A stretch of 42,697 bases of DNA from an uncultured Fidelibacterota bacterium (GTDB taxonomy: Bacteria > Fidelibacterota > Marinisomatia > Marinisomatales > UBA1611), in contig CACKSF010000007.1 of the NCBI GenBank assembly GCA_902602795.1, positions 1 to 42,697 on the forward strand, read 5' to 3'. Every line of letters begins with the position of its first letter. The stretch's first letter is position 1. A program made the translations under genes and the position numbers. The notes below the pieces were generated by a model. The model had not been told where the DNA came from. It ran no database searches and saw nothing but the letters and a program-made list of their open reading frames with translations. This document shows, piece by piece, positions 8,936 through 24,522 of this stretch.

Positions 8936-9640
8936 ATGTTAAGTGATATTTTAAATATTATTGTTTCACTACCTAGCCAACACGTCATTTTTGGTATAAT
9001 CAGTACTGTTTTGTGTATAGCTGTAGCATGGGTATATAAAAGTAGCTCTGAAAAAACAAAAAAAGTTATTCTTGAAACGATTGGATACCTAGTTGTATTC
9101 AATGAATTAGCATTTCAAGTAAGCATGTTTTATTATGGATCTTGGTCTCATATAACATCTCTTCCTTTAGAGATGTGTTACATATCCGCTCTGTTGATTC
9201 CTTTTTATAATAAGAATAAGCAGTCTAGAATTTTGCAAAATTGGTTCTTTTTTGCAGGATTTGGAGGGTCTCTTTTTGCATTTGTCAATACTAATTTATC
9301 ACAGATGGACCAGATTTATATATCTATTCATTACTTTTTTGCACATGGCCTTGTAATTTTTGTAATGCTTAGTATCGTAATAGATGGTTATAGACCTACT
9401 TGGTATGATTATTTTGATGCGATAAAGTGGACAACATATTTAGTATTAATAATCATTTCAATAAACTATATAATAGGTAGTAATTATATGTTTACATTCG
9501 ATAAACCTGCAGGAGTGAATTTCACTTTACTTATGCCAGACTGGCCATATTATTTTATCATAATGCTATGTATTGGCCTAAGCTTTTATACATTTATGAT
9601 TCTTTTGTTTAGTCTCCCTTTTTTAAAAAAACGCTCATAA
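8936..9640 (+). CDS. TIGR02206/YwaF-type integral membrane protein
   Basis: This 234-residue protein has seven likely membrane helices. The conserved segment S-L-P-L-E-M-C-Y near residue 78 and D-W-P-Y-Y near residue 200 match the TIGR02206 (YwaF-like) family of unknown function. Its last codons (cgc tca taa) lie inside the tandem operator-like repeat that precedes the next gene, so the end of this gene doubles as regulatory DNA. It may therefore not belong to the stress island, although it reads in the same direction and is only 41 bp upstream of it. Confidence 0.75.
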   Translation: MLSDILNIIVSLPSQHVIFGIISTVLCIAVAWVYKSSSEKTKKVILETIGYLVVFNELAFQVSMFYYGSWSHITSLPLEMCYISALLIPFYNKNKQSRILQNWFFFAGFGGSLFAFVNTNLSQMDQIYISIHYFFAHGLVIFVMLSIVIDGYRPTWYDYFDAIKWTTYLVLIIISINYIIGSNYMFTFDKPAGVNFTLLMPDWPYYFIIMLCIGLSFYTFMILLFSLPFLKKRS

Positions 9641-9647
9641 CGCTCAA
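9630..9647 (+). promoter_or_regulatory. Putative operator: two tandem CGCTCA repeats (site 1)
   Basis: The sequence is AACGCTCATAACGCTCAA, two copies of CGCTCA with a 9-bp period. They start at 9632 and 9641, about 40 bp before the DUF2878 gene. It overlaps the stop codon of the upstream membrane-protein gene and is followed by an AT-rich stretch (TATATTTTTAA) that may contain the promoter. The same element precedes three other transcription units of the island, including the LitR-like regulator gene. The role as operator is an inference from position and recurrence. Confidence 0.6.
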
Positions 9648-9681
9648 TTATATATTTTTAAAACGCCATTCTTTAAGTAAA

Positions 9682-10215
9682 TTGAAAATTAACGTGAACA
9701 AAATTTTTAATATAATTGGATTCCAAGCATCTTGGTGGGGGTGTGTGCTCGGTGTTAAATCTGGCATAATATATTTAGGTCCATTTTTAATGATCGCTTT
9801 TTTGGTAGTACATGTAATTCGTGTTTTGGATAATTACTCTGAGCTAAAGTTAATTATTCTATTTGGATTTGTTGGTACTGTAATTGATACATGCATGGCT
9901 TATTTTGGAATTCTCATTTATAATGGAACATATTTTCCTGATAGCTACATAGCTCCATTGTGGATAACCTCAATGTGGTGCGGTTTTTCTGCAACTATAA
10001 ACCATTCACTTTCATGGCTCCATAATCGTTATCTTGCATCAACTGTCCTTGGAGTGATCTCTGGTCCATTATCTTATTTGGCTGGTGCAAAGTTTGGAGC
10101 CATAGAATTTGATGCCGCTCCAATACTTGCTCTAATAATTATTTCAATTTATTATGGAATTACTGTTCCACTAATGTACTGGGTAAATGAAAAACTTGTA
10201 ATAAGTAGTAATTAA
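9682..10215 (+). CDS. DUF2878 membrane protein
   Basis: This 177-residue protein has about six hydrophobic segments. The N-terminal Q-A-S-W-W-G-C-V and the central PLWITSMWCGFS followed by NHSLSWL are typical of DUF2878, a family of unknown function that often accompanies COG2907/DUF1365/cyclopropane-synthase gene clusters. The frame has no ATG: TTG at 9682 is the most upstream start after the operator, with GTG at 9694 as an alternative. It is the first gene of the lipid-modification operon and overlaps the next gene by one base (TAATG). Its role is probably in the membrane, but no activity is known. Confidence 0.75.
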   Translation: MKINVNKIFNIIGFQASWWGCVLGVKSGIIYLGPFLMIAFLVVHVIRVLDNYSELKLIILFGFVGTVIDTCMAYFGILIYNGTYFPDSYIAPLWITSMWCGFSATINHSLSWLHNRYLASTVLGVISGPLSYLAGAKFGAIEFDAAPILALIIISIYYGITVPLMYWVNEKLVISSN

Positions 10216-10910
10216 TGAAAATATATTATATCATTGGTGTTTCTTTTCTTGTTTTATGTTTAAATCTCCTATTTCCAAGAAATTTAAATGCAAAGCCAAT
10301 GAACCTTTTAAACTCATTGCATGATAATACTGGGTGGGAAGTATTAGATTCTTCATCAAATAATTTAGTAAGTACCAAAGAAATCCAAGAAAGAGATCTG
10401 TTTGCAGTAATGGTAAAAAAAGATATAGAACTACCAAAAAACATACTGCAGAATGTCATTATGGATGTAAATAATTATAAACAGTTTTTAAAAAGTTCGG
10501 ATTCTTTTATTTCAAACGAGATAAAAAGAACGACACATTTTGTGGATGGATATCAATTTATTCCGATCAACATCCCCTTTTTTGATAACAGAGAATACTT
10601 ATTTCGCATGCATCCTAGTGGCTTTAAAGATGATGATAGTATTTCAATCATTCATTGGTATTTGCTTGACCAAAATGAGATTGTAATAGATAAGAAAAAT
10701 CATTCTGCGACATATCTTAGCGATGGAGCAGGACTGTGGATGGCTGAAAAAAAATCAAATAACAAAATATCTCTATCATACCGATTATATATGGATCCAG
10801 GAGGATCTTTGCCAACTTTTTTAATTGATATGATTAATAAAACTTCAGTAGTTAATATTTTTGAGGATGTTATCGCTGAGGCACAAAATAGGTATCTGAA
10901 TAGAAATTAA
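10215..10910 (+). CDS. Exported START/SRPBCC-domain protein
   Basis: Residues 1-26 form a signal peptide (hydrophobic core, then LNAKP). The remaining ~200 residues resemble the START/SRPBCC lipid-binding fold, with the pattern I-M-D-V-N-N-Y-K-Q-F near residue 80, R-E-Y-L-F-R near 130 and a C-terminal amphipathic helix. Such domains bind lipids or other hydrophobic ligands. Location in the periplasm and the neighbouring lipocalin suggest a part in handling modified or damaged lipids. It overlaps the DUF2878 gene by one base. Ligand and activity are unknown. Confidence 0.7.
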   Translation: MKIYYIIGVSFLVLCLNLLFPRNLNAKPMNLLNSLHDNTGWEVLDSSSNNLVSTKEIQERDLFAVMVKKDIELPKNILQNVIMDVNNYKQFLKSSDSFISNEIKRTTHFVDGYQFIPINIPFFDNREYLFRMHPSGFKDDDSISIIHWYLLDQNEIVIDKKNHSATYLSDGAGLWMAEKKSNNKISLSYRLYMDPGGSLPTFLIDMINKTSVVNIFEDVIAEAQNRYLNRN

Positions 10911-10927
10911 TTTAATATTATTATTCT

Positions 10928-11473
10928 ATGGTTTTTAAATTTTATATTATCATTTTGCTATCCATTACACTTACTAATTGCAATGATAGATCTGATTTTA
11001 AAAGTACAGAAATAATGAAAACAGTAAATTACGTTGATTTAGAAAAATACATGGGGGACTGGTATGTCATTGCAAATATTCCAACTTTTATTGAAAAAAA
11101 TGCTACAAATGCAATAGAGTCCTATAAGCTTTCTAGCGATGGAATAATTCATACCACTTTTTCTTTTTACAAAGGATCTCCTGAAGGTGAAAAAAAAATA
11201 TATCGCCCAAAAGGTTTTGTATTCAATACAGAAACCAACGCTGAGTGGAGAATGCAATTTCTTTGGCCTTTTAAATTGCCTTTTTTAATTATTGAGTTAG
11301 ATGAAGATTATAGTTACACTGTTATTGGTTATCCATCTAAAAAGTATGTATGGATCATGGCTCGAGATCCGCAGATGGAAGAAAAACGTTATAATCTGAT
11401 TTTAGATAATTTATCTAAAATTGGATACGATATTTCTTTGATACAAAAAGTGCCTCAAATATGGTCCAAATAA
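10928..11473 (+). CDS. Blc-type bacterial lipocalin (lipoprotein)
   Basis: This 181-residue lipocalin has an N-terminal lipoprotein signal with a likely lipid-attached Cys18 (TLTNC). The lipocalin G-x-W signature is G43-D-W45 (MGDWYVIANIP), and a C-terminal segment VWIMARDPQMEEK matches the conserved R/P region of Blc. E. coli Blc binds lysophospholipids and fatty acids at the outer membrane under stress. It sits between the START protein and the COG2907 flavoprotein, an arrangement that fits a membrane-lipid repair or transport role. Confidence 0.88.
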   Translation: MVFKFYIIILLSITLTNCNDRSDFKSTEIMKTVNYVDLEKYMGDWYVIANIPTFIEKNATNAIESYKLSSDGIIHTTFSFYKGSPEGEKKIYRPKGFVFNTETNAEWRMQFLWPFKLPFLIIELDEDYSYTVIGYPSKKYVWIMARDPQMEEKRYNLILDNLSKIGYDISLIQKVPQIWSK

Positions 11474-11494
11474 GTTTTTTAGATTAATGAAAAA

Positions 11495-12742
11495 ATGAAA
11501 ATTGCAATTATTGGATCAGGAATTTCTGGGCTTACAGCATCTTATCTTTTGAATCGTAAGCATGATATTACTCTTTTTGAAAAAAATGATTATATAGGAG
11601 GCCATACTCATACTCATGAAATTGAAAACGATAACAAAACTTGGAGTGTTGATTCTGGTTTTATTGTTTATAATGAAAGAACATATCCAAATTTTATAAA
11701 ACTTCTTGATATTCTAGGTGTCGAGAGGCAGGTGACTCGGATGGGTTTTAGCGTTAAATCGCCCAGTAAAAATTTAGAGTATGCGGGACATTCGTTAAAT
11801 GGATTGTTTGCTCAACGATCGAACCTGTTTAGTCCTTCCTTTTTTCGGATGCTAGGAGGCATGAAAAGATTCAATAAAGAGGCCAGGAAAGACCTGCCAA
11901 GTTTAAATAAGAACTTGACCTTGGGAGAATACTTGCTCAAAAACCATTACTCTGAAGAATTTATTGATAATTACATAATTCCAATTGGAGCTGCAATTTG
12001 GTCCACAAAGCCATCTAGTATGTTAAATATTCCAGCTATTTTTTTTATAAGATTTTTTGAAAATCATGGCCTTTTACAAATTTTAGACAGACCTAAATGG
12101 TGGGTAATAAAAGGTGGCTCCAAGCAATATGTGAAAAAAATCATTTCTGGATTTGAGAAAAATATAAGATTATCAACTCCTGTTCATAGTGTAATTCGAA
12201 AAGAAAAATCGGTAATGATAAAATTTGGCGTAGATATGTCAGAAGAAAAATTTGACGCCGTTGTGATGGCTACTCATAGTAATCAGGCTTTGAGATTATT
12301 GGAGCAACCCACTGATAAAGAAAAAGAAATTTTAAGCTTGCTTCCTTATCAGCGAAATGATGCTGTCTTGCATCATGACCATTCGATCTTGCCAACAAGA
12401 AAATCTGCTTGGTCTAGTTGGAATTATTTATTAGATGCTAGAAAAGAAGATCCTGTTGCTTTAACCTACAATATGAATATTTTGCAAGGCCTTAACTCTT
12501 CAAAAACTTTTTGTGTTACTTTAAATAGTTCTGAAATGATTAATAAAAACAAAATTATTAAAAATCTCAGTTATGAGCATCCTCTTTTTACAAAAGAAGG
12601 CGTAAACGCGCAAAAGCGTAAAAGAGAAATAAGTGGACAAAATAACACCTTTTATTGTGGTGCATATTGGCACAACGGATTTCATGAGGATGGTGTGGTT
12701 AGTGCATTAGATGTATGTAGCCAGTTTGGGGAAACTTTATGA
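11495..12742 (+). CDS. COG2907 FAD-dependent oxidoreductase (amine-oxidase-like)
   Basis: This 415-residue flavoprotein has the dinucleotide-binding motif G-S-G-I-S-G at residues 7-12 and the following E-K-N-D-Y-I-G-G-H. Its C-terminal FAD segment (YCGAYWHNGFHEDGVVSA) is characteristic of COG2907. Genes of this family sit beside DUF1365 and cyclopropane-synthase homologs in many bacteria and, in Rhodobacter sphaeroides, belong to the singlet-oxygen (sigma-E/ChrR) response. They take part in methylated/furan fatty-acid formation there. The gene ends in an ATGA overlap with the DUF1365 gene, so the pair is translationally coupled. The exact reaction here is not proven. Confidence 0.85.
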   Translation: MKIAIIGSGISGLTASYLLNRKHDITLFEKNDYIGGHTHTHEIENDNKTWSVDSGFIVYNERTYPNFIKLLDILGVERQVTRMGFSVKSPSKNLEYAGHSLNGLFAQRSNLFSPSFFRMLGGMKRFNKEARKDLPSLNKNLTLGEYLLKNHYSEEFIDNYIIPIGAAIWSTKPSSMLNIPAIFFIRFFENHGLLQILDRPKWWVIKGGSKQYVKKIISGFEKNIRLSTPVHSVIRKEKSVMIKFGVDMSEEKFDAVVMATHSNQALRLLEQPTDKEKEILSLLPYQRNDAVLHHDHSILPTRKSAWSSWNYLLDARKEDPVALTYNMNILQGLNSSKTFCVTLNSSEMINKNKIIKNLSYEHPLFTKEGVNAQKRKREISGQNNTFYCGAYWHNGFHEDGVVSALDVCSQFGETL

Positions 12743-13512
12743 GCTTATCAAAAAAAAATTATTTATATACTGGAGTAGTAGGGCACAGAAGGTTTACGCC
12801 CTTTAACCACTTTTTCAAATATCCCTTATTTATGGCATATATTGATCTAAACACAGTAAATAGTTTTTTAAAAAAATCTTGGTTTTGGAATGTTAATAAA
12901 AAAGCATTGGTATCATTTCATAGAGAAGACTATCACGGAGATCCGAAGAAAGATTTATCTGAATCCGTTCGCGATACTGTTTATAAAACTATTGGATTGG
13001 AAGTCAAGGGACCTATTAGATTACTTACCCATTTGAGATATTTTGGCTATTGTTTTAACCCAGTAAGTTTCTACTATTGTTTTGATAAGAATGATTTAAA
13101 AGTTGAAGCAGTTTTAGCAGAGGTGACAAATACTCCTTGGAAAGAGAGACATGCTTATGTCCTAGAGAATCAGAGTGATGATAAAAAAATAAAATCAAAC
13201 TTTAAAAAGCAATTCCATGTCAGCCCATTTTGGGGGATGGACCATGAGTACGAGTGGTTATTTTCAGAACCACAAAGTAAACTAAATGTGAATATGATAA
13301 ATTTTAAAGCAGAAAAAAAAGTGTTTGATGCTACCCTAGATATGGTTCGCAATCCATTTACTGTTAAAGAATTGTTAAAACAAGTTTTGAAGTTCCCATT
13401 TATAACCTCTTTCGTAGTACTTCGCATACACATGGAAGCCTTCAAGCTCTGGATAAAAAGAGCGCCATTTTTTGTTCATCCGGATAAACTGAAAGGAATA
13501 AGTAAGACATAA
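12739..13512 (+). CDS. DUF1365 protein
   Basis: This 257-residue protein carries the family signature G-Y-C-F-N-P-V-S-F-Y-Y near residue 110 and the N-terminal VVGHRRFTPFNHFFKYPLF. DUF1365 is nearly always found with COG2907 flavoproteins and cyclopropane-synthase-family methyltransferases and has been linked to fatty-acyl modification. It overlaps the upstream gene by four bases and precedes the first methyltransferase by five bases. It is not a classical enzyme family, and its catalytic residues cannot be named from sequence alone. Confidence 0.88.
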   Translation: MSLSKKNYLYTGVVGHRRFTPFNHFFKYPLFMAYIDLNTVNSFLKKSWFWNVNKKALVSFHREDYHGDPKKDLSESVRDTVYKTIGLEVKGPIRLLTHLRYFGYCFNPVSFYYCFDKNDLKVEAVLAEVTNTPWKERHAYVLENQSDDKKIKSNFKKQFHVSPFWGMDHEYEWLFSEPQSKLNVNMINFKAEKKVFDATLDMVRNPFTVKELLKQVLKFPFITSFVVLRIHMEAFKLWIKRAPFFVHPDKLKGISKT

Positions 13513-13517
13513 TAGAA

Positions 13518-14777
13518 ATGAAAGTAAATCAATTAGCAGACCAGGTCCCAAGTTCGAAAAATAGTTCGTTTCTTTCTTCAATATTCAAAAAAGGTGTGAT
13601 GAATAAATTTAAGCATCTTCGATATGGATCAATTGAAATACTTGATGGAGATGAAATACTTTTATTTGGTGATTCTGAATCAGATGATAAGGTTACTGTA
13701 ACTATTCATTCTAATGAATTTTATGTTTTTTTAGGAAGTGGTGGAGTAACTGGGGTAGCAGAGGCGTATATGGCAGGATATTGGACAGCAGATAATCTTG
13801 TGCTTTTGCTTCAAATTGTTTTAAAAAATAAAAAAATATTTTTATCCTTAGATTCTGGTTTTGCAAAATTAATAAACCCAATAAATAAATTTATTCATTG
13901 GAGGAAGCAAAACACACTGAAGGGAAGTAAGCAAAATATCTTAGCGCATTATGACTTAAGTAATGATTTTTACAAGTTATGGCTAGATCCCACAATGACA
14001 TATTCATGTGGATATTTCCAGGATAATTCGGTTTCACTAGAACAAGCTTCAATAGAAAAAATTGATAGGATATGTAGAAAATTAAAGCTAAATAAAAATG
14101 ATCACATTTTAGAAATCGGCACTGGATGGGGAAGTTTTTCATTACACGCTGCAAAACAATATGGTTGCACTATTGATACAGTTACTATTTCAGATGCTCA
14201 ATATGAATATGCAAGCAAAAAAATTGAAAGTTCCGGTTTAGATTCTCAAATAAATATTTTCAATAAAGATTATAGAAAAATAGAAGGTAAGTACGATAAA
14301 ATTGTTTCTATTGAAATGATAGAAGCTGTTGGATATCAATTTATTCCACAATATTTTTCAAAAATATCTTCATTACTTAAAGAAGATGGTCTTGTCGCAA
14401 TTCAAGGTATTACCTATAATGATCAAAATTTTGAGCAATATAAAAATTCAGTAGACTTTATAAAAAAATATATTTTCCCAGGATCTTGTTTAGTATCGGT
14501 AGCACAAATCTCTGATGTAATTAAAGAATATACAGATTTAGCCATTGTGGATATGGAGGATATAACAAAGCACTATGCTGAAACCTTGAACCGATGGAAA
14601 GTGAATTTTATGAAAGTAATCCCAGAAGTTAAGAAGATGGGTTTTTCTGAAGCATTTATCAAAATGTGGGAATTTTATTTTGTATTTTGTGAGGCAGGAT
14701 TTTTAGAAAGGAACATAGGCGATGTTCAACTAGTTTTTTCAAAATCAGGTGCTCGAGATATTGATATAAGGTATTAG
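13518..14777 (+). CDS. Cyclopropane-fatty-acid-synthase-family methyltransferase, long form
   Basis: This 419-residue SAM-dependent enzyme has an N-terminal lipid-binding domain (~1-130) and a methyltransferase domain with the SAM loop E-I-G-T-G-W-G near residue 200. By eye alignment to E. coli Cfa, the bicarbonate-site Cys139 is Cys164 (TYSCGYF) and Glu239 is Glu269 (MIEAVG), while His266 is replaced by Gln296 (AIQGIT). The family transfers a methyl group from SAM to the double bond of phospholipid acyl chains. The EAVG/Q form is typical of homologs clustered with DUF1365, some of which (UfaM-like) make a methylated alkene rather than a ring. It is the likely first step of the operon's pathway. 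Confidence 0.85.
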   Translation: MKVNQLADQVPSSKNSSFLSSIFKKGVMNKFKHLRYGSIEILDGDEILLFGDSESDDKVTVTIHSNEFYVFLGSGGVTGVAEAYMAGYWTADNLVLLLQIVLKNKKIFLSLDSGFAKLINPINKFIHWRKQNTLKGSKQNILAHYDLSNDFYKLWLDPTMTYSCGYFQDNSVSLEQASIEKIDRICRKLKLNKNDHILEIGTGWGSFSLHAAKQYGCTIDTVTISDAQYEYASKKIESSGLDSQINIFNKDYRKIEGKYDKIVSIEMIEAVGYQFIPQYFSKISSLLKEDGLVAIQGITYNDQNFEQYKNSVDFIKKYIFPGSCLVSVAQISDVIKEYTDLAIVDMEDITKHYAETLNRWKVNFMKVIPEVKKMGFSEAFIKMWEFYFVFCEAGFLERNIGDVQLVFSKSGARDIDIRY

Positions 14778-14779
14778 AA

Positions 14780-15814
14780 ATGATTAGTTTTTTAATTCGA
14801 CTGGCTGAAAAAGGATTTTTGCCTGATTTTTTTATAAGAATTGGTATAAAACGATTATCTAAGGTCAGACTTGATTTTGCAAAAAATTCTTCACCTGATG
14901 AAATTGAAAAAAGACACGATGATTGGGTGCAGGGCATGAAAAAAAGTCCAATAGCATTGGTTCCTGAAAAAGCAAATGAGCAGCATTATGAAGTCCCTCC
15001 AAAATTCTTTGAGGTTGTATTAGGTTCAAATCTCAAATATAGTTCCGGTTATTGGCCTGAAGGTATTTTTTCTCTCAATGACTCCGAAACCGCTATGTTA
15101 AAACTAAGTTGTGAGAGAGCAGAAATAAAGGATGGTCATAGCATTCTTGAGTTAGGATGTGGGTGGGGATCTTTGACTTGCTACATGGCTAAAAACTTTC
15201 CAAAAAGTAAAATTACCGCGGTAAGTAATTCAAAAGATCAGAAGTTATTTATCGAAAATAGGTGTAAGAAAGATGGACTTCATAATATCTCAGTAACTAC
15301 CGCAGATATGAATGATTTTTCTATTGATTCGGAACATGATCGTGTTGTCTCAATTGAGATGTTCGAGCATATGAGAAACTATAAGAAACTTTTAGAGAAA
15401 GTTTCTTCTTTTCTCAAAAAAGACGGAAAACTTTTTATTCATATCTTCTCTCATGAGTTTCTTGTTTATCCATTTGAAGACAATAATGAAGGTGATTGGA
15501 TGGCTAGAGAGTTTTTTAGCGGAGGTATGATGCCTTCACATCAGCTTTTACTTTACTTCCAAGATAATTTATCTATTGAATCTACTTGGAGGTTGTCCGG
15601 TACCCATTACGAAAAAACATCCCTAGCATGGTTAAAAAATATGGATAGGAATCGAAGTTCTATATTAGAAATATTTGAGAAAACTTATGGTGTGGAGAAT
15701 GCGAGTATTTGGTTCCAAAGATGGAGGATATTTTTCATGTCTTGTGAAAAATTATTTGGATACAATAGTGGTAGGGAATGGGGAGTTTCTCACTACAGGT
15801 TTGTTAAGAGGTGA
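14780..15814 (+). CDS. Cyclopropane-synthase-family methyltransferase, short form
   Basis: This second SAM methyltransferase of the same superfamily has 344 residues and resembles the shorter, coclaurine-N-methyltransferase-like branch. The SAM loop is E-L-G-C-G-W-G near residue 125. Compared with E. coli Cfa, the active-site Glu (Glu196, MFEHM) and His (His221, FIHIFSH) are present, but the Cys is a Ser (Ser89, YSSGYW). That is the opposite pattern to its neighbour two bases upstream. The substrate could be an acyl chain or another small acceptor. Placement between the long form and a desaturase argues for lipid work. Confidence 0.8.
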   Translation: MISFLIRLAEKGFLPDFFIRIGIKRLSKVRLDFAKNSSPDEIEKRHDDWVQGMKKSPIALVPEKANEQHYEVPPKFFEVVLGSNLKYSSGYWPEGIFSLNDSETAMLKLSCERAEIKDGHSILELGCGWGSLTCYMAKNFPKSKITAVSNSKDQKLFIENRCKKDGLHNISVTTADMNDFSIDSEHDRVVSIEMFEHMRNYKKLLEKVSSFLKKDGKLFIHIFSHEFLVYPFEDNNEGDWMAREFFSGGMMPSHQLLLYFQDNLSIESTWRLSGTHYEKTSLAWLKNMDRNRSSILEIFEKTYGVENASIWFQRWRIFFMSCEKLFGYNSGREWGVSHYRFVKR

Positions 15815-15822
15815 CTTAGGTA

Positions 15823-16539
15823 ATGATTATATTTTTTGCATTGATTTTACATTGGTATTTATCATTATTTTTCCAGACTATTTTTTTACATAGATATGCT
15901 TCCCATAATATGTTTAAAATGACACCATTTGTAGAGAAAGTATTTTATTTTTTAACATTTCTTTTTCAAGGTTCTTCATTTTTGCATCCTGCGGCATATG
16001 GCGTTATGCACAAGAAACATCATGCACATACTGATACACCTAATGATCCTCATTCGCCTGTTCATATTAAAAATATTATCTCATTTAATCTCGCAACTGT
16101 TGTGGAGTACAGAAAGCTTGTTAATGATTTTGCAGAAGGTAAAAGAAACGATTCTACCGTTCCTAGGTGGGAAATAATGGAAAAAATCGCTGAGTCCTTA
16201 ATCACCCGAGCAGCATTTATTTTAATTTATTTTTTATTTTATTACCATTTTTCAACAGCAAATTGGCAATATATATTTTTGCCCATTCACATAATGATGG
16301 GTCCAATACATGGATTTATTGTTAATTGGTTTGGTCATAAGAGTGGTTACCGGAATTTTGATTCTCTCAACGACAACTCTAAAAATACTCTTCCATTAGA
16401 TTTTTTGATGATGGGCGAATTATATCAAAACAATCACCATTACAAACCTAACAATATAAATTTTGCTGTAAAATGGTATGAATATGATTTTGGATTTTTG
16501 GCTACTCAATTTTTAAAAAGAATGAGAATCATTTATTAA
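15823..16539 (+). CDS. Membrane fatty-acid desaturase
   Basis: This 238-residue membrane protein has the histidine boxes of acyl-CoA/acyl-lipid desaturases: H23-R-Y-A-S-H28, H63-K-K-H-H67 (HKKHHAHTD), then N-W-F-G-H-K near residue 170 and the final N-N-H-H near 205. These bind a diiron centre that uses O2 to introduce a double bond. It is short for the family, but all boxes are present. In this operon it could supply the second double bond needed between methylation and further oxidation of the acyl chain, which is an inference. Confidence 0.88.
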   Translation: MIIFFALILHWYLSLFFQTIFLHRYASHNMFKMTPFVEKVFYFLTFLFQGSSFLHPAAYGVMHKKHHAHTDTPNDPHSPVHIKNIISFNLATVVEYRKLVNDFAEGKRNDSTVPRWEIMEKIAESLITRAAFILIYFLFYYHFSTANWQYIFLPIHIMMGPIHGFIVNWFGHKSGYRNFDSLNDNSKNTLPLDFLMMGELYQNNHHYKPNNINFAVKWYEYDFGFLATQFLKRMRIIY

Positions 16540-16541
16540 AT

Positions 16542-17423
16542 ATGACATCTAAGGTCAAAGATTATATCAATGTTTTCATTATCCTATCTTTCGCTTGGAT
16601 TATTGCTTTAGGAGGAGGATATGAGTCATTATCGTATAATGGATTCCCAATTTTAATTATTTGTATGGTTACTAGTTTCTTGGTTCATTGGATAATTTTC
16701 ATCCCTTCATTTTTGGCAAAAACAGAAAAATTTTATGATATTACAGGAACGGTTGCTTATTTGGTTACGCTTTACATCGCTACTTCATTAACGTCGTATT
16801 CATCCGGTGAAAGTTTAGAAATTAGGACAAAAATTATCATTGGGATGGTATCTTTTTGGGCAATTCGATTGGGAGTTTTCCTTTTTATTAGAGTTTTAAG
16901 AGTGGGTGAAGATCGTCGATTTCGTGAGGCAAAGAAGTCTTTTTCAAAATATCTTGTTTGGTGGACTATGTCTGGCCTTTGGGTTTTCCTTACAACGGCA
17001 AATGCCTTAACACTTATTATTAACAATAAAAAATTGGATAATAATTTTCTTTTTTATTTTGGAGTTATAATTTGGATCATTGGAATTGTATTTGAAATTG
17101 TAGCAGATGAACAAAAGAGGAAATTTCGAATAGATAAGAGTAATAAAGGGACTTTTATTTGTTCTGGCTTATGGAGTATCTCTAGGCACCCTAACTATTT
17201 CGGTGAGATCATACTTTGGATAGGAATCGCGCTCGTTTCTCTTCCAACTCTCCATGGTTTTCAATATATAACCCTTATTTCTCCAATTTTTATTTATTTT
17301 TTGTTGACCAGGATTAGTGGTGTAAATCTATTAGAAGAAAGTGCTGATAAAAAGTGGGGTGATTTACCTGAATATATAAAATATAAAAAAAGAACGCCTG
17401 TTCTTATTCCTTTCGTCAAATGA
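16542..17423 (+). CDS. DUF1295 / steroid 5-alpha-reductase-like membrane protein
   Basis: This 293-residue protein with about eight membrane helices ends in the motif region S-R-H-P-N-Y-F-G-E near residue 215. That is the conserved NADPH-binding and active region of DUF1295 and steroid 5-alpha-reductase or isoprenylcysteine methyltransferase-like enzymes. DUF1295 genes often accompany cyclopropane-synthase clusters and are thought to reduce acyl or sterol-type double bonds. It starts two bases after the desaturase stop and belongs to the same operon. Confidence 0.82.
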   Translation: MTSKVKDYINVFIILSFAWIIALGGGYESLSYNGFPILIICMVTSFLVHWIIFIPSFLAKTEKFYDITGTVAYLVTLYIATSLTSYSSGESLEIRTKIIIGMVSFWAIRLGVFLFIRVLRVGEDRRFREAKKSFSKYLVWWTMSGLWVFLTTANALTLIINNKKLDNNFLFYFGVIIWIIGIVFEIVADEQKRKFRIDKSNKGTFICSGLWSISRHPNYFGEIILWIGIALVSLPTLHGFQYITLISPIFIYFLLTRISGVNLLEESADKKWGDLPEYIKYKKRTPVLIPFVK

Positions 17424-17439
17424 GTAAAGGGAGTATGTT

Positions 17440-18012
17440 TTGCAAAAGCTTATTAAAATATTTTGGTTGTTTTTAATAACAATTTTTAATCTAATTATGG
17501 CAATTGAAACACCCGATTATAATTTATTGGATAGTCAAGGAAGGTTTGAACTAAGAGAGTATAAATCTTTTTTGGTAGCAAAGACTACTGTTGAAAATGA
17601 TTATAAAGAAGCTACGGTAGCAGGTTTCAGGAAAATTGCTAATTATATTTTTGGAGGAAATGAAAGCCAATTAAGTATAGCAATGACCGCTCCCGTGATT
17701 GCAAATGTGCCCAATGAGAGAGACATTTATGACATTGTTTTCGTTATGCCCAAAAAACATACTTTATCATCATTACCCACTCCTAATGATAATCAAGTTA
17801 AAATAGAGACTCATAATCTAGGAAAAACTGCAGTGGTAAAATTTGGTGGTTGGGCAACTAAATCTAGAACGAAATACTATAAAAAACAGCTTGAGAAATA
17901 TTTAAGGAATAATGCATATATTGGCAAAGGTGATTTTTTAGTAGCTCAATATAACAGTCCTTGGGCACTACCACCATTTCGAAGAAATGAAGTACTTATA
18001 GCTATAGAATAG
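17440..18012 (+). CDS. SOUL-type heme-binding protein, exported
   Basis: This 190-residue protein has a hydrophobic N-terminus (residues 1-20, a signal or anchor) and a SOUL/HBP fold: FELREY near residue 37, SIAMTAPV near 80 and the C-terminal AQYNSPWALPPFRRNEV. SOUL proteins bind heme or tetrapyrroles. The start is TTG at 17440, six bases after a strong AGGGAG. An ATG at 17435 is out of frame and gives only a 13-codon peptide. It ends the lipid operon: its TAG at 18012 is followed at once by the next operator-like repeat. A tetrapyrrole binder fits a photosensitiser-control role. Confidence 0.85.
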   Translation: MQKLIKIFWLFLITIFNLIMAIETPDYNLLDSQGRFELREYKSFLVAKTTVENDYKEATVAGFRKIANYIFGGNESQLSIAMTAPVIANVPNERDIYDIVFVMPKKHTLSSLPTPNDNQVKIETHNLGKTAVVKFGGWATKSRTKYYKKQLEKYLRNNAYIGKGDFLVAQYNSPWALPPFRRNEVLIAIE

Positions 18013-18016
18013 ATAA

Positions 18017-18045
18017 AACGCTTAAAACGCTCAAAACGGTCAAAA
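18017..18045 (+). promoter_or_regulatory. Putative operator: three tandem 9-bp repeats (site 2)
   Basis: Three consecutive 9-mers begin at 18019, 18028 and 18037: CGCTTAAAA, CGCTCAAAA and CGGTCAAAA. They lie between the SOUL gene and the DoxX-like gene, 58 bp before the latter's ATG. A TTGAAT at 18067 and TACAAT at 18088, 15 bp apart, could be a promoter just downstream. This is the longest copy of the element shared by the four transcription units. Binding by the LitR-like protein is inferred, not shown. Confidence 0.62.
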
Positions 18046-18102
18046 ATAGGTTGTAGTTTAATTTTTTGAATAATAGATTTAAATAGTTACAATAGTTAAT
18101 CA

Positions 18103-18444
18103 ATGGATTCTTATTTAGCCAATATCGTAGAAGCTTTAAAAATTATATCAAGCGTAGCAATTTTTTTTGTGTGGGTTGTTAGGTATGATAATATTAGAAA
18201 AGAGTTTGTTGAATATAATCTTCCATCATGGGTACGTGATCTTGTGGGGATCTTAAAATTATCATTCGCTACGATGTTACAGTTCCCTAATGAAGAACTT
18301 GTTAAGATTGGAGCCCTGGGTATTAGTGCGTTAATGCTTGGAGCTGTAGTAACACATTTGAGATTAAAGAGTAATTTTAGGAGATACATTGCTTCGGTAG
18401 CAATGTTGTCTATAAGTGTCTTTATTCTTCTTCAGATCCTGTAA
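18103..18444 (+). CDS. Small DoxX-like membrane protein
   Basis: This 113-residue protein has four hydrophobic segments and the pattern VRYDNIRKEF, LVGILKLSFA and GAVVTHLRLKS, reminiscent of the DoxX-like family of small membrane proteins. The function is unknown. It is the first gene after the triple operator-like repeat and starts a short unit with an SRPBCC protein and an exported protein. An assignment only to an uncharacterised DoxX-like membrane protein is justified. Confidence 0.65.
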   Translation: MDSYLANIVEALKIISSVAIFFVWVVRYDNIRKEFVEYNLPSWVRDLVGILKLSFATMLQFPNEELVKIGALGISALMLGAVVTHLRLKSNFRRYIASVAMLSISVFILLQIL

Positions 18445-18497
18445 TATAATTAAAGTAATACATAATTAGATCTGATAATTTTTTTAAAATTAATATT

Positions 18498-18986
18498 ATG
18501 CCTTTCACACAAAAAACCTTTATAAACAATGTTAATCCTGCTGATGTAATACGTTGTTTTCACTCATATGAGTTTATTGAATTTTTAATTTTAGGTCAGC
18601 CGGTCAAAATTGTTAGTTGGAAAGGCATTGACAATAATAAAGAAGCCTCCTTTTTATTTTGGTTTTTTGGATGGCGAAAAATGTCTGTGGTCCATGAGAA
18701 TTATAAGATAGATCGAGATCATTTATCATTTGAAGATAGAGGATTGGTTCTCCCTTTTGGGTTAAAAAGCTGGAGGCATCGCCACATTGTAAAGCCTCAT
18801 GAATCAGGTGCTTTGATAATTGATCAAATCTATTTCGAAGAAAAAAATATTTTCAAGAAGTTTTTTGTCTATCCTTTGATGTTATTTCCAATTGTTATCA
18901 GAAAAATTACATACAAAATTTGGTTTAATTTGCTCGAAGGAAGACTGTGGAATTCAATTCTAAGGAGTCATGAAAGTGAAGTATAG
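18498..18986 (+). CDS. SRPBCC-family ligand-binding protein
   Basis: This 162-residue cytoplasmic protein has the helix-grip pattern of SRPBCC proteins similar to the N-terminal domains found with TIGR01777: an N-terminal strand, a short helix around VIRCFHSYEFIEFL, a beta sheet (FEDRGLVLPFGLKSWRH) and a long C-terminal helix. The fold binds hydrophobic ligands, but the ligand is unknown. It overlaps the next gene by 17 bp. Presence in the same regulon as the START protein suggests a second lipid- or pigment-binding component. Confidence 0.6.
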   Translation: MPFTQKTFINNVNPADVIRCFHSYEFIEFLILGQPVKIVSWKGIDNNKEASFLFWFFGWRKMSVVHENYKIDRDHLSFEDRGLVLPFGLKSWRHRHIVKPHESGALIIDQIYFEEKNIFKKFFVYPLMLFPIVIRKITYKIWFNLLEGRLWNSILRSHESEV

Positions 18987-19455
18987 ATTTTTAATATATT
19001 TTTTAATTCTATCAGCAGGTATATCCAAATCAAAAAAAGGACTCTCTCTCACAAATGTAAAATGGGTTTCGGAAGGAAATCCAAAAAATGAAGTCTGGTT
19101 TCAAGATTGGTCAGGGTACGTTCGATTGTTCATAACTACATTCTCAGATACTTCGTATGTAGATCCTGGTCCATATGTTACTGAAACACAAAATAAACCA
19201 TACCTAACACCAAAACCTTATGATTTAGTTCAGAAAAATCAACTCATTGGAAACATAAAATGGGATAAATATTTTTCATGGGATGGAAAAGAGAACAATT
19301 TCATTTGGAACATTGACAGAGCAAACCCAAAGATAAAACTTCCAGAGCAGTATTCTGGGGTTGCTTCCTACAAAGAGGGTAGGTTGACTTTAGAAATTAA
19401 TAAGGGTTCCAAGTTAGTTTATTCCATGATTTTGAAGCCGATATCATACTATTAA
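18970..19455 (+). CDS. Exported protein of unknown function
   Basis: I do not recognise this 161-residue protein. It has a signal-like N-terminus (residues 1-18, then KSKKG) and a beta-rich body with many Trp residues (WVSEGN, VWFQDWSGYVRLF, WDKYFSWDG, FIWNI). The composition suggests a small periplasmic beta-barrel or lipocalin-like fold, but there is no clear motif. The start lies inside the end of the SRPBCC gene, which implies translational coupling. It ends 15 bp before the third operator-like repeat. Confidence 0.6.
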   Translation: MKVKYRFLIYFLILSAGISKSKKGLSLTNVKWVSEGNPKNEVWFQDWSGYVRLFITTFSDTSYVDPGPYVTETQNKPYLTPKPYDLVQKNQLIGNIKWDKYFSWDGKENNFIWNIDRANPKIKLPEQYSGVASYKEGRLTLEINKGSKLVYSMILKPISYY

Positions 19456-19470
19456 AACTCATTTCTTATA

Positions 19471-19490
19471 AACGCTCAAAACGCTCAAAA
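19471..19490 (+). promoter_or_regulatory. Putative operator: two tandem 9-bp repeats (site 3)
   Basis: AACGCTCAAAACGCTCAAAA is a perfect tandem pair of CGCTCAAAA, starting at 19473 and 19482. A TTGACT at 19496-19501 follows immediately and could be the -35 box, with the AT-rich TAATTT region 17 bp later as a weak -10. An AAGGAG at 19539 then precedes the ATG at 19550. The repeats thus lie just upstream of the promoter of the fourth unit's photolyase/antioxidant genes. This is the cleanest of the four sites. Confidence 0.65.
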
Positions 19491-19549
19491 AATACTTGAC
19501 TCTCACATATTGCCATTTTAATTTTATATACAATTAAAAAGGAGTTATT

Positions 19550-19837
19550 ATGTCATCAATATTAGAAGCAGTCGCAAAAGGAACTGACCTAAAGCATTTT
19601 AATGAAAGAAAAGAAAGGGTCCCAAACAATTTTGACGCAAAAAAAGCAGACAATGATCTTAGAGCTTGTCCGGTTTGTAAAGTAGTGTGGGAGGTTATGA
19701 TTTTCAATCAGACCATCGATTATAAGTATTACCACAATTTTCCTAGATACGGTAAAGAGAAGGGCACTTGTCCGAGTTGTGCACAAAGAATTAAAAATAA
19801 GTACTATCACAATTCGGAGGTAATTGATCCATCATGA
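19550..19837 (+). CDS. Small zinc-ribbon-like protein
   Basis: This 95-residue protein has two CxxC pairs, C40-P-V-C43 and C74-P-S-C77, spaced 34 residues apart, enough for one zinc ribbon. No catalytic motif is visible. The start has a strong AAGGAG five bases upstream and is the first gene after operator site 3. Its stop overlaps the start of the VOC gene by four bases. I do not know its function. A role in nucleic-acid or protein binding is possible but unsupported. Confidence 0.65.
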   Translation: MSSILEAVAKGTDLKHFNERKERVPNNFDAKKADNDLRACPVCKVVWEVMIFNQTIDYKYYHNFPRYGKEKGTCPSCAQRIKNKYYHNSEVIDPS

Positions 19838-20139
19838 AATTAACTCATGTAGATCACATTGCTGTCGAATCTAAAAATATCTCAAATTCGGTCAAGTGGT
19901 ATACCAAAAACTTCAAATGTGATATAAAGCATCAGGATGAAACATGGGCATTGCTTAAGTTTGAAAATATTCAAATTGCATTGGTTACTCCAGGTCAACA
20001 TCCTCCTCATTTTGCTGTTATCGATGAAAAAGTTGCAAATCTTAATAATAAAAGAACTCATAGAGATGGAATTCAGTTTGTTTACAGTACAGATCCTGAC
20101 TCCAACGTCATAGAAAAAATAGACAGGGGCACTTCTTGA
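19834..20139 (+). CDS. VOC (glyoxalase/dioxygenase) superfamily protein, single short domain
   Basis: This 101-residue protein matches one half-module of the vicinal-oxygen-chelate fold: THVDHIAVESKNIS at the start, WYTKNFKC near residue 28, HFAVID near 64 and a final NVIEKI. His8, His64 and a C-terminal Glu are candidate metal ligands. Enzymes of this fold include glyoxalases, dioxygenases and resistance proteins, so the reaction cannot be fixed. It is short for the family (usually 120-140), so it may act as a dimer. Its TGA overlaps the TTG of the next small gene. Confidence 0.7.
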   Translation: MKLTHVDHIAVESKNISNSVKWYTKNFKCDIKHQDETWALLKFENIQIALVTPGQHPPHFAVIDEKVANLNNKRTHRDGIQFVYSTDPDSNVIEKIDRGTS

Positions 20140-20312
20140 GTAGTGTTAGTGTATTTATAGAACAAAATTATTGTATCATATCCGCTTTTGAAGAAGATTC
20201 AGGTGATTTTGTATCTAAAGTTAATGAATTACTTAGGGAAGGATGGTCGTTAAGCGGAGGCCTGTCATCTTCTAATAGTAAGATATTTCAAGCCTTATAC
20301 AAGGTGAATTAA
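20136..20312 (+). CDS. Small DUF1737 protein (58 residues)
   Basis: This 58-codon frame fills what would otherwise be a 172-bp gap. It begins with TTG at 20136 overlapping the VOC stop (TTGA) and ends with TAA at 20310-20312, sharing a base with the SDR start. Its product contains V-N-E-L-L-R-E-G-W-S-L-S-G-G followed by F-Q-A-L-Y, which is the core pattern of DUF1737. The function of that family is unknown. Gapless coupling on both sides supports that it is a real gene, although the start codon is unusual. Confidence 0.75.
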   Translation: MSSVSVFIEQNYCIISAFEEDSGDFVSKVNELLREGWSLSGGLSSSNSKIFQALYKVN

Positions 20313-21010
20313 TGAATATTTTGATTATAGGTGGTGCTGGAGGTATTGGTTCTCAATTATTATTTGATCTTATGAAGGATCCCGCTAACAATATATTGGT
20401 TGGCTTCCACAAAAACAAGGTTGAGACCCCTTATAAATCAATTGAAATGAATGCTTCAAAATTTGAAGAAGTAGAAAATTTTATCACAAAAGGTCTAGAA
20501 GAATTTAACAGTATTGACGCCATAATTAATTTGCCCGGAAATTTAATTTTAAAACCAGCTCATTTATCATCCGAAGAAGATTTCTATAGTACCATAGATA
20601 TTAATTTGAAGTCATCTTTCGGTGTTGTTCGTTCAGCCGGCAAGTTATTAGAGAATTGTTCATTAGTCTTAATGTCTACTGCTGCAGCAAGTATTGGTTT
20701 ATCTAATCATGAATTAATTTCTAGCGCAAAAGCTGGAGTTGAAGGGCTGGCTAAGTCAGCTGCTAAAACATATTCCAGGAAAAATATTAGAGTAAATACA
20801 GTTTCGCCAGGCTTGGTAAATACTCCCTTATCTAAAAAAATTACTAGTAATCCTATCATTTTAAAAGCTAGCATTAAGATGCTAGCTTTAAATAAGATTG
20901 GAGAGCCAAAGCAGATTAGTAACATGATAAGATTTTTAATTAATCCTGAAAACGATTGGATCACCGGACAAAATTTCATTGTAGACGGTGGTTTGTCATC
21001 AACAAAATAA
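20312..21010 (+). CDS. Short-chain dehydrogenase/reductase lacking the catalytic Tyr
   Basis: This 232-residue SDR has the nucleotide-binding G7-G-A-G-G-I-G13 and the C-terminal segment RVNTVSPGLVNTPL and ITGQNFIVDGG. At the YxxxK active-site position the sequence reads I136-S-S-A-K140: the Lys is kept but the Tyr is Ile. SDRs with a similar HE-xx-AKAG segment accompany COG2907/photolyase gene sets in other bacteria, so the loss is probably a subfamily trait, not damage. It may bind NAD(P) without classical dehydrogenation. It is coupled to the small gene upstream. Confidence 0.82.
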   Translation: MNILIIGGAGGIGSQLLFDLMKDPANNILVGFHKNKVETPYKSIEMNASKFEEVENFITKGLEEFNSIDAIINLPGNLILKPAHLSSEEDFYSTIDINLKSSFGVVRSAGKLLENCSLVLMSTAAASIGLSNHELISSAKAGVEGLAKSAAKTYSRKNIRVNTVSPGLVNTPLSKKITSNPIILKASIKMLALNKIGEPKQISNMIRFLINPENDWITGQNFIVDGGLSSTK

Positions 21011-21021
21011 GAGGTAAATAA

Positions 21022-21351
21022 ATGAAGAAACCAGCATTAAGAAGTGATAGGTTCAAATCTTCACAATTCGAAGAAACACATTGGACAAAAAGCTCAAAGA
21101 ATATTGGAGAGTATATTTTTAGGAGAATATCATTAGATCAGTCAGATAAAGAATTACAGAATATTCGTCCTATGCATTTAATGAGTAAACTTATAATTAC
21201 CAGTAAAGAGATTAATAATTATGTAGATGATTATTTAAGAATGATTGATGAAAAATCTAATAATGCATATGTTGAGAAAATGAGCTCTAGATTAAACAAA
21301 AAATCTAAAGAACTAAATATTGATTTTCCAGAATATTTAGGTCATAGTTAA
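21022..21351 (+). CDS. Hypothetical protein, 109 residues
   Basis: I do not recognise this protein. It is charged, mostly helical, and has no signal peptide, Cys pair or membrane helix. An AGAGGT ribosome-binding site lies about six bases before the ATG. It sits 11 bp after the SDR and 6 bp before the glutathione peroxidase, so it is a member of the operon behind operator site 3. The compact spacing makes a real gene likely, but nothing suggests an activity. Confidence 0.65.
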   Translation: MKKPALRSDRFKSSQFEETHWTKSSKNIGEYIFRRISLDQSDKELQNIRPMHLMSKLIITSKEINNYVDDYLRMIDEKSNNAYVEKMSSRLNKKSKELNIDFPEYLGHS

Positions 21352-21357
21352 TTTTTT

Positions 21358-21945
21358 ATGACAGCTGTATATTTTAATTTAATTTTAAGATTGTTTTTTC
21401 AACCAGCTTTTCTAATAATCATCATATTTTCTTTTCTTAGTAGCAGTATAATAGCAGGAGGTCCAAGTAAAATGGAAAAGTCTTTTTATGACTTATCAAT
21501 AAATGATATAAATGGGAAAAAGATTGATTTGCTATCGCTCAAAGGTAAAAAAGTTATGTTAGTTAATGTTGCATCAAAGTGTGGCTATACTAGCCAGTAT
21601 GCTGATTTACAAGAGCTTTACAAAAATTACAAAAATAAATTGGAAATAATTGGCATTCCATGTAATGACTTTGGTAGACAAGAACCAGGAACACTAGATG
21701 AAATAAAGAGTTTTTGTAATCTTAATTATGGTGTAACATTTCCGCTTACTGAAAAACAAAAAATAAAGTCAAATCCAATTAGCGAGCTATATGAGTGGTT
21801 ATCAGACCCTGATCTCAATGGCTGGAATAGCTCACTTCCTTCTTGGAACTTTTGTAAGTATATCATTGACGAGAAAGGTAAGTTAATCCAGTATTTTAAA
21901 AGTGGAGTAGATCCTAATGGAAAAGAAATCTTAGAGTTACTGTAA
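21358..21945 (+). CDS. Glutathione-peroxidase-family thiol peroxidase, exported
   Basis: This 195-residue protein has an N-terminal hydrophobic segment (residues ~10-33), so it is periplasmic or membrane-anchored. The GPx domain shows the peroxidatic Cys75 (VASKCGYTSQY), the Gln of the tetrad in C-N-D-F-G-R-Q-E-P-G and the Trp in PSWNFCKYIID. It uses Cys, not selenocysteine. The family reduces hydroperoxides, often lipid hydroperoxides, with thioredoxin or glutathione. Next to photolyase and lipid-modifying genes, a role in detoxifying photo-oxidised lipid peroxides is plausible. Confidence 0.9.
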   Translation: MTAVYFNLILRLFFQPAFLIIIIFSFLSSSIIAGGPSKMEKSFYDLSINDINGKKIDLLSLKGKKVMLVNVASKCGYTSQYADLQELYKNYKNKLEIIGIPCNDFGRQEPGTLDEIKSFCNLNYGVTFPLTEKQKIKSNPISELYEWLSDPDLNGWNSSLPSWNFCKYIIDEKGKLIQYFKSGVDPNGKEILELL

Positions 21946-23582: not shown

Positions 23583-23600
23583 AAGATCATAACGCTCAAA
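23583..23600 (+). promoter_or_regulatory. Putative operator: one CGCTCA repeat plus degraded copy (site 4)
   Basis: A clear AACGCTCAAA lies at 23591-23600, preceded 9 bp earlier by a weaker AGATCATAA that matches the first repeat of site 1 (CGCTCATAA) in 7 of 9 bases. An AT-rich segment TTATATTTTTAA follows, as at site 1. It is about 48 bp before the LitR-like gene, so the regulator may control its own expression. A TATTAT at 23623 could be the -10 box. This is weaker than the other sites. Confidence 0.55.
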
Positions 23601-23640: not shown

Positions 23641-24522
23641 ATGAGATATCTCAGTTCTAATGATGTAGCGGAAATTTTAGGTGTAAATATATCTACCCTC
23701 AAACGATGGACGGAAAATGGTACATTAGGTTGTTCGAAAACAGCTGGTGGACATAGAAAGTTTACCATGCAGCACGTTAGAGATTATTATAAAAATAATA
23801 AGAACTCTGATAAAAATTTTGGTTTGGGATTAGAAAAGTTAGAACATAAGACAGTTTACGATTTAATTAATAAATGTGATTTTAAAGAATTAGCAAAAAT
23901 TTTAGCAGATGCTAGTCTTGAATCTAATGAAATAACAGTTAGTAATATTATCAACGGTTCTTACATGAAAGGAATTCCAGCTTCAACAATTTGTGATGAA
24001 ATTATCGATCCAGGATCGATGATAGTTGAGAATGCACTTAGTCAGAATTATATATCCCATGTAGAGGCATTTATTAGTAGAAAATTAATTACCCGGTCAG
24101 TTGAGTCCCTAAACCAAAATAAGCCAAACGGCTCCTTTAATGGTAAAACTGCACTCTGCGTTAACTTTGAAGATAATTTACCTGATTTAGGTGTGGTAAT
24201 GTCAGAAATTATTTTACGGCACAATGGTTATAATGTACTTAATACTGGTTCACATGCAGAACTAGGTAGTTTACAAGAAGTGATTGATAAAAAAAATGTA
24301 GATCTGTTGCTTTTTTATCTGTGTGACATGCAATGTTGTATGGCTACAGTAAAAGATAATTTAGCGAAAACAGCTTCTCAGGTAAAAAAAATAGTTAGTC
24401 TTGCTAAAAAATTAAAGGTTAAAGTGATTTTTGGTGGATCTGGAATGAATTTTCTTCCAGATGTATCAAGCCAAATTAAAATTACCTTTAACAAATATTC
24501 CGATTTAGAGAAAATAATCTAA
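23641..24522 (+). CDS. litR: LitR/CarH-like MerR regulator with degenerate B12 domain
   Basis: This 293-residue regulator has an N-terminal MerR helix-turn-helix (residues 1-60: YLSSNDVAEILGV, LKRWTENGTLG, AGGHRKF), a four-helix region (~75-160) and a Rossmann-like cobalamin-type domain (~165-290, ending VIFGGSGMNFLP). In CarH, light is sensed by adenosyl-B12 bound by the His of an ExHxxG motif. Here the aligned segment is NLPDLG, with Pro181 for His, and the bundle residues Trp and His of the WxEH region are Ala132 and Ala143 while Glu142 stays. It resembles class II LitR of Pseudomonas, which lacks B12 and works with a LOV protein. It is preceded by operator site 4 and followed by a photolyase. 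Confidence 0.85.
   Translation: MRYLSSNDVAEILGVNISTLKRWTENGTLGCSKTAGGHRKFTMQHVRDYYKNNKNSDKNFGLGLEKLEHKTVYDLINKCDFKELAKILADASLESNEITVSNIINGSYMKGIPASTICDEIIDPGSMIVENALSQNYISHVEAFISRKLITRSVESLNQNKPNGSFNGKTALCVNFEDNLPDLGVVMSEIILRHNGYNVLNTGSHAELGSLQEVIDKKNVDLLLFYLCDMQCCMATVKDNLAKTASQVKKIVSLAKKLKVKVIFGGSGMNFLPDVSSQIKITFNKYSDLEKII

Follow-up and report, generated by a model that had tools for sequence, protein, structure and literature searches.

The stretch of DNA analysed here (the window, 42,697 nucleotides) belongs to an uncultured member of the Neomarinimicrobiota (now Fidelibacterota), marine to judge by its relatives, whose genome is 59% complete. It encodes on its forward strand a MerR/CarH-like regulator of 293 aa (23641..24522), an intact ORF running from ATG to stop. 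The gene is flanked, on the same strand, by those for a photolyase-related protein, DPRP (PF04244, 22095..23570), and for a phr2-type DNA photolyase (TIGR00591, 24551..25894), both probable members of its regulon. Profile matches and neighbourhood define a photoprotection/lipid gene cluster at 9682..21945, also on the forward strand, which includes DUF2878, lipocalin, amine oxidase, DUF1365, two cyclopropane-fatty-acid (CFA)-synthase-like, desaturase, DUF1295, SOUL, DoxX_2, SDR, and glutathione-peroxidase-like genes (the last named by eye). The two CFA-synthase-like genes are different and lie side by side (13518-14777 and 14780-15814), and a bacterial TMEM164-family protein (PF14808, 1.7e-29) opens the cluster at 8936-9640. 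The C-terminal segment that bears the Fe-S-cluster cysteines is missing from DPRP as well as from the 16 orthologues compared with it; relatives without the cluster have previously been described from picocyanobacteria (PMC9426592).

The regulator has the domain set of CarH and class I LitR, namely a MerR HTH, a helical bundle, and a Rossmann domain. The winged HTH with its linker (residues 1-69, 23641..23847) matches PF12728 (1e-9) and PF13411 (4e-8) and contains the recognition helix NISTLKRW and the wing TAGGHRKF. It is followed by a four-helix bundle placed by CarH alignment and AlphaFold model at about residues 70-158 (23848..24114), and by a B12-type Rossmann domain at about residues 168-293 (24142..24519). 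The latter is assigned by fold search and by a weak match to the B12-binding profile PF02310 (1.1e-5, under the curated cut-off). Among PDB sequences, it is closest to 8jbs (7.6e-17), an entry of CtMerR, which binds AdoCbl. The AlphaFold model, built from 58 relatives, reaches a pLDDT of 85.7 and a pTM of 0.78; its top folds are CarH (5c8d/5c8e) and CtMerR (8jbs/8jbt), with an E of 6e-9, and it superposes on 8jbs_A with a TM-score of 0.81 and an rmsd of 2.9. The LitR/CarH-like architecture proposed in a first-pass annotation, made from the DNA letters, is thus borne out by the HTH matches, the PF02310 similarity, and the best folds.

The residues by which CarH holds AdoCbl are missing from this scaffold. 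With the TtCarH sequence (identical to PDB entry 3whp) as reference for the register, the axial His H177 aligns with Pro181 in NLPDLG (codon 24181..24183), as the first-pass annotation had read, and Pro occupies this position in all 33 Pro-type relatives. The bundles align without gaps from a shared Pro (P124), so that CarH W131, H132, E141, and H142 correspond to L133, S134, A143, and F144. This register is fixed by f16 relatives (e.g., L096), whose EH pair lies at an equal distance from the shared Pro. The same annotation rightly considered the bundle Trp and His as gone, but its numbering (Ala132, Glu142, Ala143) is one residue off; moreover, the signature is not reduced to Glu142, which is the counterpart of CarH Glu140, but entirely lost. 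Since W131, E141, H142, and H177 of CarH are replaced by L133, A143, F144, and P181, the whole light signature has disappeared; indeed, none of the elements of the published light-response signature, GxxW, EH, GxxH, and GxxxP (PMC11796333), is found in the regulator. The Wx9EH bundle motif is likewise absent; f16 members have kept the EH and not the W. The published B12 pattern, D/ExHx2G/Px41SxT/Vx22-27GG (PMC9304148), reads NxPx2G-x41-Y-L-C-x36-GG in the regulator: the spacing is as published up to the SxT, where Ser has become Y226 and Thr C228, and the GG is retained after 36 residues. By hand count, the loop after the SxT position is 8 residues longer than in the His-type relative L013. 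No invariant His occurs after the HTH, in either the bundle or the Rossmann domain, among the 26 clean members. Orthologues ranging from 88% to 28% identity share this state across four families, which argues against chance. The earlier suggestion that the protein seems unable to bind B12 is therefore supported as far as the loss of all CarH AdoCbl-binding determinants is concerned; the inability itself we infer from the sequence, and the regulator presumably no longer binds the cofactor.

The extra length of the loop is accounted for by an 8-residue insertion, CDMQCCMA (residues 228-235, 24322..24345), in the β3-α3 (SxT) loop, which the first-pass annotation overlooked. It carries C228-x-x-Q231-C232-C233, and these four named residues are invariant. 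Among the loci collected from genome searches (33 and 53 sequences), the C..QCC motif and the axial Pro occur together in 33/33 distinct Pro-type sequences, hereafter Cys-type, and the insertion in 0/53 His-type relatives, in which the axial residue is His wherever readable (one is unread). Of the 19 residues beyond the HTH and linker that are invariant in the 26 clean members, 14 fall among 30 pocket positions (hypergeometric 2e-10, an indicative value as the pocket set was picked after viewing the alignment). As most invariant non-HTH residues line the former B12 pocket, this pocket seems to have been rebuilt and not to have decayed, and its pattern of conservation is consistent with a ligand or redox site that has been maintained. 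A further cysteine, C173, at the end of the neighbouring strand β1, is invariant in the same 26 members. It is, however, frequent among His-type relatives too, and Gly takes its place in the Pro-type L111, which leaves a cluster of four cysteines uncertain. Alternatively, the Cys loop may be structural or provide a partner-binding surface.

In the phylogenetic tree, a single branch (support 99/94) separates the Cys-type proteins from the rest, and the tree program warns that long branches meet at it; the same branch is recovered with the trait columns removed (SH-aLRT 83). The Cys-type is represented in at least four Neomarinimicrobiota families. Its f16 members combine the bundle EH with the axial Pro and the Cys loop, a combination consistent with a stepwise change. 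No Cys-type relative was found in plasmid and viral collections, and none was seen outside the Neomarinimicrobiota in one HTH-peptide pattern scan of genome contigs, from which divergent members could escape. The record L027, titled Flavobacteriaceae TMED121, carries a Cys-type regulator together with its neighbours and is probably a mislabelled Neomarinimicrobiota bin. No genome of f1 or f8 was found to have both a His-type and a Cys-type gene. Conversely, in the f16 genome G170 an intact His-type gene coexists with a Cys-type copy that carries a frameshift, and hence simple replacement of the former by the latter is not universal. The frameshift of this copy (L118, G170:C31) lies inside the Cys loop, and an assembly error is possible. 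Among the publications on LitR/CarH diversity that were consulted, with subscription journals partly covered, none describes the Cys-loop type.

Upstream of the regulator, 57 bp before its start, two tandem 9-bp repeats (AAGATCATA ACGCTCAAA, 23583..23600, forward strand) form a probable operator at its own promoter. The second recurs in 9-bp tandem (CGCTCA every 9 bp) at four places, this one included, between the cluster genes. Probable operators on the forward strand are accordingly assigned at 19472..19489 (two repeats, 8 nt 5′ of TTGACT, preceding the gene at 19550), at 18018..18044 (three repeats, preceding the DoxX_2 gene at 18103), and at 9631..9648 (two repeats, preceding the DUF2878 gene at 9682). 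Single copies with at most one mismatch number 15 against 8 expected, which indicates that it is the tandem arrangement that matters. Within its own genome, three of the four exact repeat matches lie inside this window.

The same element is conserved in relatives. With at most two mismatches, CGCTCANNNCGCTCA is found 5′ of the regulator in 23/23 f1/f8 Cys-type genes, at a constant position 56-58 bp before the start, and the best match in 460 mononucleotide shuffles has 3 mismatches; the sequences being related, no strict probability is attached to this control. The other ten Cys-type genes (f16/f17) are preceded instead by CGTGCA repeats, and most of them also have an altered recognition helix (xESTxR for xI/VSTxK). 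The CGCTCA form, again with at most two mismatches, precedes 22/53 His-type genes, including those of Calditrichota and others, and in eight of these 22 the repeat ends exactly 6 nt 5′ of a -35 box of the TTGA type, the spacer being 17 nt long. By position and conservation, the CGCTCA repeats are probably the operator of the regulator. Because they are conserved before its gene and recur in the cluster, autoregulation and control of the linked cluster are likely.

In most f1/f8 loci, the regulator gene is adjacent to those for DPRP and the phr2-type photolyase, and these loci also contain CFA-synthase, DUF1295, SOUL, amine oxidase, SDR, and glutathione-peroxidase-like genes. Several His-type regulators of relatives adjoin the same SOUL/DUF1295/CFA genes. 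The DNA target and the regulon appear to have been inherited, and the sensor changed. Unlinked operator-like sites of relatives (L163, L168, and L164-L167) precede, among others, a further cryptochrome/photolyase-like gene (named by eye), a gene of ABC-F-like type, and a pair encoding a TlpA-like and a small Cys-rich protein.

Several known systems are close to this regulator. CarH/class I LitR of Thermus thermophilus (5c8d) has in common with it the domain order and the fold and, as predicted for the regulator, a tandem direct-repeat operator near the -35 and a photoprotective regulon. The regulator differs in lacking the AdoCbl-contacting signature residues, in the Cys insertion of its SxT loop, and in the repeat period of its predicted operator (9 bp vs 11 bp). 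CtMerR of Chloracidobacterium thermophilum, its closest PDB sequence match, keeps W, EH, and the axial His and binds AdoCbl (PMC11796333). The His-type Neomarinimicrobiota relatives (e.g., L012-L017) have a similar HTH and, in many cases, the same upstream repeat; unlike the Cys-type, they carry W-x9-EH, DxHxxP, and SxT-type motifs and no insertion. Class III LitR (Burkholderia) has a light-dependent spectrum and a C-terminal domain unlike known domains, and it does not fit the regulator, whose C-terminal part can be recognised as a Rossmann domain of the B12 type.

Class II LitR of Pseudomonas (PplR1-3, PmlR2), which the first-pass annotation had put forward as an analogy, also comprises cobalamin-independent LitR relatives placed over photolyase/lipid genes; for the regulator, such independence from B12 is the predicted state. 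In P. putida, class II LitR likewise controls photolyase, UfaM, and CryB genes (PMC9758184). Class II proteins are described as retaining similarity in the four-helix bundle (PMC9758184) and work with a short LOV partner and TGTACA-N12-TGTACA sites, whereas in the regulator it is the Rossmann similarity that remains: PF02310 is matched by 25/26 Cys-type members and PF02607 by 1/26. The class II operator TRTACA-N12-TGTAYA has 7 matches with 2 mismatches in the window against 8.4 expected and was discarded as a candidate. The short LOV protein which the annotation had proposed to look for was not found in 33 genomes of the host's family (one-sequence query; own genome 59% complete), and the analogy is not upheld. 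None of the PAS proteins read in carriers of the regulator has the Cys motif of LOV domains; they are either kinase-like or join PAS to a membrane protein. In 15 carriers, BLUF was also absent. The apparent fusion of PAS to a membrane protein, UbiA/MenA-type prenyltransferase-like by eye, is conserved in carriers (L173-L178); L178 belongs to the genome under study (contig 43, about 978-1262). The regulator is a conserved CarH/LitR variant, neither a product of degeneration nor a class II LitR.

The loss of B12 residues is not simply explained by a shortage of AdoCbl, since the host has a cobalamin adenosyltransferase. Most carriers likewise have this enzyme, and MetH is present in the majority of f1/f8 carriers, so that loss of B12 metabolism is rejected as the cause for f1/f8. 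In f16, carriers have no MetH match. The f16 genera with the regulator (genomes G159-G174) show no match to the MetH reactivation domain, which is mostly present in g39, an f16 genus that lacks the regulator.

According to the first-pass annotation, the signal may be a different one (redox, another chromophore, or an unlinked partner); in this general form the suggestion is supported, and it is sharpened by the conserved Cys loop. That pocket cysteines sense redox, metal, or a covalent ligand is the most economical reading, and we would give it roughly an even chance. It is not the only one. The regulator might have no sensor of its own and be bound by a separate protein that senses light; the adjacent DPRP or another cryptochrome-like protein would be the most plausible candidate. 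The PmSB-LOV/PmlR2 pair offers a precedent for such an arrangement (PMC9758184), the putative regulon is rich in genes for photolyase-like flavoproteins, and DPRP adjoins the regulator in most f1/f8 loci; in f1, it is present in 10-11/11 carriers vs 1/22 non-carriers (p about 1e-6, kinship ignored). Near-complete carriers without a DPRP match (G115, G161, G165, G173) nevertheless exist, and f15 has DPRP without the regulator. DPRP may be a mere regulon member, and the invariant pocket and Cys loop would be left unexplained. On balance, this alternative is rather unlikely.

Less probable still is that a corrinoid, or some other tetrapyrrole such as heme or bilin, is still bound but in a new way, a Cys thiolate perhaps acting as its axial ligand. 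Against such binding, the axial His, Trp, EH, Ser/Thr of SxT, and GxxxP are all lost, the tail-binding loop has gained 8 residues, and no His of the bundle or Rossmann domain is invariant; f16 carriers, in addition, have no MetH match. It would nonetheless agree with the retained B12-type fold, the bundle EH of f16 members, the cobalamin enzymes of the hosts, and the tetrapyrroles bound in the same fold by SCHIC/AerR domains and photocobilins. The poorest candidate, which we regard as very improbable, is a constitutive DNA binder or decaying pseudo-sensor regulated by another protein, in the manner of Myxococcus CarA, a B12-independent CarH paralogue under CarS control (PMC9304148). Like the regulator, CarA is devoid of the Trp of Wx9EH; however, it retains ExHxxG and EH (PMC9304148), with no Cys loop described there, whereas the regulator has neither motif, and the pocket is the most conserved part of its C-terminal domain, which does not resemble decay.

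The reading preferred here, which we hold to be moderately probable, is that of a cobalamin-free CarH/LitR derivative with a rebuilt pocket, a tandem-repeat operator, and Cys-based sensing of redox, metal, or a covalent chromophore. The regulator would have descended from CarH/LitR and ceased to use cobalamin. It would bind tandem CGCTCA repeats near the -35 at its own promoter and at those of the linked photolyase/lipid-protection cluster, and B12-type relatives appear to bind repeats of the same kind. The former B12 pocket would be rebuilt with Pro181 in the axial-His loop, the SxT loop extended by C228-x2-Q-C232-C233, and C173 nearby. Oxidation of the cysteines, binding of a metal or Fe-S cluster, or covalent attachment of a chromophore would most likely alter oligomerisation, thereby changing DNA binding and switching photo-oxidative defence genes. 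The identity of the repeats as its operator, the sensory role of the cysteines, the nature of the signal, and the action as repressor or activator are what we infer from the observed sequence, conservation, predicted fold, conserved repeats, and gene neighbourhood. More tentatively, with a likelihood somewhat short of even, a B12 photoreceptor was converted once, inside the Neomarinimicrobiota, to a C-x2-Q-C-C-loop sensor, with operator and photoprotection regulon kept.

If true, this would be a natural case of one circuit, with the same operator and regulon, swapping its sensor chemistry, with intermediates preserved in the f16 members that have the EH and the Cys loop without the axial His. 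The regulator would represent a testable candidate for cobalamin-independent sensing of light or photo-oxidative stress in uncultured marine bacteria, and its predicted operator may provide a map of the photo-oxidative response in genomes of unculturable organisms.
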